Assembly: GCF_014643735.1 (NCBI RefSeq)
Contig: NZ_BMKA01000003.1
Location: 310,001 to 374,000 of the forward strand
Direction: 5' to 3'
DNA from: Neptunicoccus cionae
GTDB taxonomy: Bacteria; Pseudomonadota; Alphaproteobacteria; Rhodobacterales; Rhodobacteraceae
DNA: 64,000 nt
Of this stretch, positions 45,194 through 63,255 are shown one piece after another. The notes beneath the pieces were generated by a model, which worked only from the letters and a program-made list of their open reading frames with translations, was not told the origin of the DNA and ran no database searches. Both the position numbers and the translations under genes were made by a program. Numbering within the stretch: position 1 is the first letter of the stretch; each line of letters opens with the position of its first letter.

Positions 45194-45225
45194 CTCATCA
45201 TCCTTTTAACGGGCTGCATAAGGGG

Positions 45226-45276
45226 TCAGCCCAAGAAAAAACCCCAACCGTAACGACGATCGGGGTGCAAATTCAT
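45226..45276 (-). CDS. Candidate leader peptide of metZ
   Basis: 16 codons, MNLHPDRRYGWGFFLG then TGA. AAAAGG stands about nine bases ahead of its ATG. The ORF runs straight through the downstream terminator hairpin and ends inside a second, mutually exclusive pairing region, the arrangement used in translation-controlled attenuation. There are no Met or Cys codons apart from the start, so if it is real it is more likely an arrest peptide or a sensor of another residue (two adjacent Arg codons). Not recognised from any family; inference. Confidence 0.45.
   Translation of the reverse strand: MNLHPDRRYGWGFFLG
45235..45266 (-). terminator. Intrinsic terminator inside the metZ leader
   Basis: ACCCCGATCG (45266-45257) pairs with CGGTTGGGGT (45250-45241) through a 6-base loop; ten pairs including two G-U, directly followed by UUUUUU (45240-45235 region). 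It lies 48 bases ahead of the metZ start. A competing pairing of GGGGT (45245-45241) with ACCCC (45226-45222) would break it, and GGGCT (45232-45228) can pair with AGCCC (45215-45211). Confidence 0.7.
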
Positions 45277-45298
45277 AGACCACGACCTTTTAGTGGAA

Positions 45299-45328
45299 AG
45301 ATTAACGTGGCCCACAATCCGGTTACAA
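45299..45328 (-). promoter_or_regulatory. Probable metZ promoter
   Basis: TTGTAA (45323-45328) and TAATCT (45299-45304) on the minus strand with an 18-base spacer. It predicts a transcript starting near 45292, a leader of about 100 bases containing the leader peptide and terminator. The gap 45329-45528 up to the glutathione transferase gene shows nothing else I can name. Confidence 0.45.
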
Positions 45329-45528
45329 ATCGCCACGCAAATTCCTTACGCCAGCGGGAAATGCCGGTCAATGGCACAAAAGCCTAAAAACAACGCAAAT
45401 AAGCTGCCCCACGAAGTTGTGAGCCCGTATCTGACACTCGCATTTGACCGACGCGTCGAGAATTCACTTGATTGCTCTCTTGCACGATCCCCCGCTCCAT
45501 ACCACTCTGCCCCCAAAGGAGAAACCAC

Positions 45529-61716: not shown

Positions 61717-63255
61717 ATGTCAGATATCCAATCCCGTCGTTCCGGAGGCCGCGCAGCACGCCAGGCCCTTCGTGCGGCCCCCCTTACTGATGCCATCCGT
61801 CCGGTCCGTGCCGGTATGGAAGGTGGCACATTCAAACCCCTGTCCCAAGCGGCTGAAAAACGCATTTACCAAGCTGCGCTCGACGCGATGGAGCAGATCG
61901 GCTTTGCCGACGCCCCGCCCTCCGGTGTTAAAATCCTCACAGATGCGGGGGCAATTCTCGGAGAGGACGGGCGCATCCGCTTCCCCCGTGCGCTGGTGGA
62001 AGACATGCTCGCCAAGGCCAACCGCTCCGTTACCTTGCACGGGCGTGACCCCAAACATGACATGATCCTGTCCGGCAACCGCGTTCACTACGGAACCGCA
62101 GGCGCGGCGGTGCATTTGGTAGACGTAGAAAATAACGACTACCGCGAATGCACCGTTCAGGATTTGTATGATGCGGCGCGTATCGTGGACCGGCTCGACA
62201 ACGTGCATTTCCTGCAACGCCCGATGGTGTGCCGTGACATTGCAGATAACTTCGAAATGGACCTCAACACGATTTACGCCTGCTGTTCGGGGACAACCAA
62301 ACACATCGGCACGTCCTTCACCGAACCGTCCTTCATGAAAGGCGCGTTTGAGATGATCTACGAAATCGCGGGTGGCGAAGCTGCTTACCGCGACCGCCCG
62401 TTCATATCCAATTCGAACTGTTTCGTCGTCCCCCCGATGAAATTCGCGACCGAGTCCTGTCAGGTGATGGAGCATTGCGTGCGTGGCGGGATGCCGGTGC
62501 TGTTGCTGTCTGCGGGTCAGGCCGGTGCAACCGCCCCTGCCCCGATTGCCGGAGCAATTGTTCAGGCGGTCGCTGAATGCCTTGCCGGTATGGTCTATGT
62601 TAACGCGATGGCCCCCGGCCATCCGACAATCTTTGGCACATGGCCCTTTGTGTCGGACCTGCGTACGGGGGCCATGTCGGGTGGCTCTGGCGAGCAAGCG
62701 CTTTTGACCGCTGCCTGCGCCCAGATGCACCACTTCCTTGGCTTACCCGGCGGCGCCGCTGCTGGTATTGCGGATGCAAAGATGCCGGATATGCAGGCCG
62801 GATACGAGCAGGCCCATTCCAATGTTATGGCAGGTCTCGCCGGTCTGAATATGGTCTACGAATCTGTCGGGATGCATGCCTCCCTCCTCGGGTTCTGCCT
62901 TGAAAGCCTGATTATCGGGGACGATTTGCTTGGCCAATCGTTGCGCTGTGTACGCGGGATAGAGGTAACAGAAGACACGGTTTCTCTCGACGTGATCCGT
63001 TCGGTTTGCCTTGAGGGGCCGGGGCACTATCTGGGGTCCGCGCAAACCCTGTCTCTGATGCAAACCGAATACATCTATCCCGCACTCGGGGATCGCAGTT
63101 CGCCGAAGGAGTGGGCAGAACTTGGCAAACCCGATCTCATCCAAAAAGCCATAAAACGAAAGAACGAAATTCTGGCTGAACCGTCAAACGCGCGTCTTGA
63201 CCCGCAAACCGACGCTGCCATTCGCAAGGCCTTTCGCATACATTTACCCGCGTAA
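61717..63255 (+). CDS. MttB-family (trimethylamine methyltransferase-like) protein without pyrrolysine
   Basis: 512 aa continuous frame. Family features: GVKILTDAGAILGEDGRIRFP, RDPKHDMILSGNRVHYGTAG-like barrel start, HIGTSFTEPSFMKGA, SGGSGEQALLTAACAQMHHFL and SIIGDD-like LESLIIGDDLLG. True MttB of methanogens has an in-frame amber codon; here none is needed, so it belongs to the non-pyrrolysine group (MtgB-like), which acts on quaternary amines such as glycine betaine or proline betaine. No corrinoid protein is adjacent. GGCAA ribosome site is weak. Confidence 0.85.
   Translation: MSDIQSRRSGGRAARQALRAAPLTDAIRPVRAGMEGGTFKPLSQAAEKRIYQAALDAMEQIGFADAPPSGVKILTDAGAILGEDGRIRFPRALVEDMLAKANRSVTLHGRDPKHDMILSGNRVHYGTAGAAVHLVDVENNDYRECTVQDLYDAARIVDRLDNVHFLQRPMVCRDIADNFEMDLNTIYACCSGTTKHIGTSFTEPSFMKGAFEMIYEIAGGEAAYRDRPFISNSNCFVVPPMKFATESCQVMEHCVRGGMPVLLLSAGQAGATAPAPIAGAIVQAVAECLAGMVYVNAMAPGHPTIFGTWPFVSDLRTGAMSGGSGEQALLTAACAQMHHFLGLPGGAAAGIADAKMPDMQAGYEQAHSNVMAGLAGLNMVYESVGMHASLLGFCLESLIIGDDLLGQSLRCVRGIEVTEDTVSLDVIRSVCLEGPGHYLGSAQTLSLMQTEYIYPALGDRSSPKEWAELGKPDLIQKAIKRKNEILAEPSNARLDPQTDAAIRKAFRIHLPA

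Follow-up and report, generated by a model that had tools for sequence, protein, structure and literature searches.

The metZ gene of Neptunicoccus cionae is preceded by a short leader in which a terminator overlaps a 16-codon open reading frame, and the question this raises is whether the gene is controlled by translation of a leader peptide or by an RNA that senses a metabolite. The window referred to below is the whole stretch of DNA that was analysed, 64,000 nucleotides (positions 310,001 to 374,000 of contig NZ_BMKA01000003.1). We conclude with high confidence that a SAM-II riboswitch in the leader shuts metZ off by transcription termination: it very probably senses S-adenosylmethionine (SAM) and halts transcription when this is plentiful. 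The relevant features are collected in Table 1.

Table 1. Features of the metZ leader and gene, in window coordinates.
Feature	Position	Strand	Basis
Probable promoter: TTGACC 45371-45366, 17 nt, TAAGGA 45348-45343	45343..45371	-	TTGAC conservation
SAM-II (SAM_alpha, RF00521) aptamer	45270..45346	-	47.6 bits, gathering 36, E 2e-08
P1 hairpin, CGTGG 45337-45333 with CCACG 45310-45306	45306..45337	-	Rfam alignment and sequence
P2 pseudoknot, putative 5' strand CCGGATT, within the P1 loop	45316..45322	-	Pairing by eye
Predicted shared strand GGTCGTGGT: P2 3' strand when SAM is bound, 5' arm of the antiterminator when it is not	45279..45287	-	Sequence, folding
Intrinsic terminator, 11-pair hairpin 45266-45241 and six U 45241-45236	45236..45266	-	Folding, terminator scan
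ACCCCGATC: predicted antiterminator 3' arm, the same bases as the terminator 5' arm	45258..45266	-	Sequence, folding
16-codon ORF MNLHPDRRYGWGFFLG, judged a chance frame	45226..45276	-	ORF list, shuffles, leader comparison
metZ ribosome-binding stretch AAAAGGATGATG	45196..45207	-	Read from sequence
metZ, O-succinylhomoserine sulfhydrylase, 391 aa	44018..45193	-	TIGR01325 558.4 bits, cutoff 510.05

The Rfam SAM-II model gives a clear match to this leader, above gathering: RF00521 is matched end to end at 45346-45270, and the same site is recovered by a scan of the whole window. A sequence-only reading of this DNA had remarked in passing that the leader could be a SAM element, which the score (47.6 bits against a gathering threshold of 36) bears out. 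Its statement that the pseudoknot core was not recognisable does not hold for an aptamer that exceeds the gathering score; the core was perhaps only half recognised because the interval then considered, up to 45328, omits the P1 5' strand at 45337-45333. Membership of the SAM-II class is supported by the P1 stem and the conserved core (GATTTG, CCACGTTAA, CTAAA), checked in the Rfam alignment of the window and in alignment A1, which holds 40 of 77 aptamers (the window plus 76 matches). It is supported also by the methionine gene directly served by the leader, since metZ scores above the TIGR01325 cutoff.

The Rfam alignment of the window marks P1 only. The P2 pairs were inferred by eye, the complementarity being between CCGGATT and GGTCGTGG with one bulge; in the MAFFT alignment A1 the P2 3' strand is shifted by one column in leaders with AAAAGG, and P2 was read by eye instead. 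A further contact joins the loop base Y of TTG[Y]GG to the R of CC[R]CTAAA. Across 79 leaders (described below) these two positions are T-A in 9, C-G in 66, T-G in 4 and C-A in none, the window having T-A, so that the contact is maintained by compensation. A Watson-Crick pair between the last loop base and a downstream position, possibly lengthened into a short helix, was predicted in PMC2258182, and in our own reading the Y-R contact is part of that helix.

An overlapping match of the leader to the Rfam rnk_leader model (24.2 bits against a gathering threshold of 50, E 1.5) was put down to chance. Elsewhere in the window, at 62767-62866 on the plus strand, there is a match to PYLIS_3 (pyrrolysine insertion, mttB; 53.1 bits, gathering 38). 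The 512-residue ORF that contains it, at 61717-63255, is a relative of trimethylamine methyltransferase, with 333.4 bits to TIGR02369, which falls short of the cutoff of 525. Since no in-frame stop interrupts the ORF at this point, the match seems to reflect similarity between coding sequences.

Transcription is expected to start near the first base of P1. The promoter named by the sequence-only reading is plausible in one respect, in that TTGAC occurs in 76 of 78 leaders (searched over 50 bases before the leader plus 12 bases; the sequence of L039 does not extend far enough), and its commonest position is 35 or 36 nt 5' of the P1 GTGG. It is less convincing in another: a sigma-70 scan listed no promoter at its threshold, and the -10 element is poor.

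Beyond the aptamer lies an intrinsic terminator. Its 51-nt fold has a z score of -2.47, with 3 of 200 shuffles equally good, and the run of six U opens at the last base of the stem (45241); by the simple terminator scan, 0.6 sites would be expected by chance per 461 bases. The aptamer and the terminator hairpin are both above chance, and the 16-codon ORF is not. When the stretch following CTAAA is folded as a growing chain, the most stable structure for chain ends from 45257 to 45245 pairs 45287-45279 with 45266-45258, at -8.9 kcal/mol; the terminator wins at 45243 and reaches -17.4 kcal/mol. It is also formed in the minimum fold of the whole leader. The attenuator with UUUUUU and the competing antiterminator pairing described in the sequence-only reading are thus both found again here. 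Once its 3' arm has been made, the terminator beats the antiterminator at equilibrium, and antitermination must therefore be kinetic; the order of events, as we infer it, suits a kinetic switch. In the window taken singly, composition alone would account for the strength of the arm pairing (z -0.52, with 0.29 of 300 shuffles reaching it). As judged from sequence and folding, the leader has the parts of an expression platform, namely a terminator and a competing pairing that cannot coexist with it, with a common strand that would be controlled by the ligand.

On the basis of these features, the following mechanism is proposed. Transcription would begin at about P1. When SAM is low, the strand 45287-45279 (GGUCGUGGU) would pair with 45266-45258 (ACCCCGAUC) as this emerges, and the antiterminator would hold the terminator 5' arm so that polymerase continues into metZ. 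When SAM is bound, 45287-45279 would be locked in the pseudoknot P2 with CCGGAUU of the P1 loop (45322-45316); the terminator would then form and transcription would stop near 45236.

It is of interest to see how far this arrangement extends among relatives. The best 80 of 299 metZ relatives found were taken as loci; the nearest of these are Neptunicoccus sediminis, a Rhodobacteraceae MAG and Amylibacter cionae, each 94% identical in the best segment. RF00521 scores above gathering in 76 of these best 80. Two of the loci below gathering are L063, whose contig begins inside the aptamer, and L055, in which no aptamer core is visible by eye. The other two leaders not among the matches above gathering, L005 and L039, have SAM-II-like aptamers 5' of metZ that were seen by eye, with an extra insertion, possibly forming a hairpin, between the P1 3' strand and CTAAA. 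The 79 leaders examined are the window, the 76 Rfam matches, and L005 and L039. A hairpin-plus-U scan finds a terminator in 68 of the 79, compared to 15-35 of 79 in ten rounds of shuffled leaders; at -12 kcal/mol or better the count is 67, compared to 4-14.

The remaining 11 of the 79 leaders have an aptamer and no terminator by the scan (L013, L014, L021, L024, L028, L030, L044, L047, L050, L061 and L069). In some of these, predicted folds reach the region before the metZ start, and in these lineages the platform may have switched to translation.

The antiterminator was compared across the terminator-bearing leaders. In all 68, five or more of the 11 bases that directly follow CTAAA are predicted to pair into the terminator 5' arm or loop when the nascent chain is folded as far as the loop. 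Pieces shuffled separately reach the same level in 66% of cases, with a mean of 5.3 bases compared to 8.2 in the real leaders, so that composition accounts for part of this result; the 5-of-11 measure is also lenient in 7 of the 68 (L035, L037, L051, L057, L072, L077 and L079), where the called terminator starts within this stretch of 11. When the arms of 56 distinct pairs were swapped, own partners had a mean of -10.75 kcal/mol compared to -9.64 for permuted ones, with none of 5000 permutations as good, figures that are inflated by the relatedness of the loci. In 43 of the 56 pairs the own partner binds better than a foreign partner of median strength, and with the 16 pairs of roseobacter type removed, 34 of 5000 permutations are as good. 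Locus by locus, the 68 leaders have a mean z of -0.99, with 37 below -1. In the 24 roseobacter-type leaders (20 distinct), 92.7% of the cells of the predicted antiterminator are paired, and slid versions reach at most 59.1%. Two-sided covariation of the antiterminator was not found in the roseobacter set, where every one of 500 shuffles does at least as well as the real alignment. The argument for the antiterminator is built on its predicted pairing in all 68 leaders, on the swapping of arms and on one-sided changes. Among the 24 roseobacter-type leaders the loop of the terminator has an almost constant CTTTCGCTTG(A/G)CC (for example L056:1406-1471), from which L025 departs; this reads as the putative antiterminator 3' arm.

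It might be argued that the aptamer works at the level of translation, by occluding the Shine-Dalgarno sequence of metZ, the terminator being constitutive or merely yielding a small RNA. Translational SAM-II switches have been described (PMC10907184), and the S. meliloti metA leader has a terminator for which no antiterminator is predicted in the account of PMC9373788. Here, however, the metZ ribosome-binding stretch (45207-45196) starts 63 nt beyond the end of the aptamer at 45270, and an antiterminator that uses the P2 strand is predicted in all 68 leaders with a terminator, the window among them. We consider this explanation to have a small chance of being correct.

Slightly smaller still is the chance that a translated leader peptide, gated by the riboswitch or not, governs the terminator, with a ribosome on the ORF melting the hairpin or stalling. 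The 16-codon ORF does exist as the sequence-only reading described it, at 45276-45226, with the peptide given there and no Met or Cys codon past the start, and an SD-like AAAAGG (45291-45286) stands 9 nt 5' of its ATG. Leader ORFs that interact with riboswitches are also known, from the B12 switches of M. tuberculosis (PMC11260477). Yet such a frame is easily obtained. Within the 98 nt that begin at CTAAA and end with the metZ ATG, a closed ATG ORF of at least 16 codons occurs in 843 of 5000 dinucleotide shuffles, and in 2065 of 5000 if GTG and TTG starts are counted as well.

Comparison of the leaders points the same way. Over the 112 bases that run from P1 to the ORF stop, L002 departs from the window at 3, and in L002 and L003 the start codon has become AAG (an in-frame TTG remains), although aptamer and terminator are both kept. 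Start and stop are both lost in L004, L006, L007, L016 and L018, and no ATG lies between aptamer and terminator in 42 of the 68 leaders that have a terminator. An ATG ORF reads past the terminator in 21 of the 68, compared to 11.8 +/- 2.8 in shuffles, and outside the roseobacter type ATG frames are open in 16 of 18 cases compared to 0.84 of other positions. The excess is undercut because ATG frames overall are no more open than others: 24 of 31 are open through the terminator, against 0.83 of 1345 other positions. Eight of the 21 leaders are of the roseobacter type, where the ATG overlaps the antiterminator stem. Of the 24 rows of roseobacter alignment A2, 13 have ATG at columns 18-20, 7 have ACG and 4 have some other triplet; exchange of T for C leaves a pair in place, U-G or C-G, and abolishes the start. 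The ORFs range from 16 to 33 codons with scattered stops, and 7 of 24 run to the metZ start, which is the end of the stretch read. A search for a conserved peptide among ATG, GTG and TTG ORFs of the 79 leaders revealed none, as frame, length and start all vary; the GFF common to several of the peptides can derive from the GGGG-UUUUUU of the terminator.

The geometry is also unfavourable to control by a ribosome. The stop codon had been thought to be placed so that a terminating ribosome would cover the 3' arm of the terminator, but by its coordinates (45228-45226) it lies beyond the U tract (45241-45236) and is transcribed later, so that a ribosome there could not decide termination. The SD-like bases appear moreover to extend into the strand that is paired in both states, and in S. 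meliloti metA an AUG following the SD of the riboswitch is unused in its own context and works outside it (PMC9373788). Arrest-peptide or leader-peptide control thus finds no support, with the ORF that overlaps the attenuator not conserved; together with the clear SAM-II match, this is the outcome that the sequence-only reading had itself named as speaking against its proposal. The ORF is very likely a chance frame through the terminator. There is only a very slim prospect that in the small lineage formed by the window and L001 it is translated at low SAM, the moving ribosome providing a second layer of antitermination; low SAM is suggested because the SD-like sequence extends into the strand that SAM would bury.

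An amino-acid or arrest-peptide attenuator with no relation to SAM, for which the layout of terminator and ORF might speak, has next to no probability in view of the RF00521 match, the lack of a run of regulatory codons in the ORF and the unconserved peptide.

We return to the SAM-II riboswitch acting by termination. Control of this kind is already in print for Rhodobacterales and for S. meliloti metZ. SAM-II elements with terminators were described in 2005 (PMC1273637), and the alphaproteobacterial metA, metZ and metY leaders of that work share with the present one a promoter a few bases before P1, an aptamer above gathering, a terminator between P2 and the gene, and a methionine gene downstream. 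The window differs in having AAAAGG, in place of AAAGAGG, after CUAAA, and in its P2 3' strand GGUCGUGG, which has one base more than the GGUCAGG of 35 of the 79 leaders. According to PMC2258182, the SAM-II mechanism lacked experimental establishment in 2007. The S. meliloti metZ switch with its RZ small RNA has the same gene, aptamer class and layout, and its terminator is predicted to form upon SAM binding, as here (PMC9373788). Its leader RNA of about 100 nt fits a terminated leader and is more plentiful in rich medium (PMC9373788). S. meliloti belongs to a different order, however.

Leyn et al. 2014 (PMC4239095) reported SAM_alpha in 14 of 15 Rhodobacterales genomes, and 5' of the sulfhydrylase gene (there metY) in 26 of 30 genomes from two orders; in the portion available, the antiterminator arms of these leaders are not described. 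The word metZ does not occur in the main text of PMC10117765, and the account of R. pomeroyi small RNAs in PMC4809877 names a cobalamin switch and, in the portion available, no SAM switch. PMC12218461 deals with a different uORF.

The lead is thus settled as an ordinary one, a known riboswitch class in an expected place. What is added here is an arm-by-arm comparison of metZ leaders. The gain is small: a comparative picture in which the strand of the SAM-II pseudoknot would double as the antiterminator across the metZ leaders of the Rhodobacterales, and a set of leaders that supplies concrete arms to mutate.
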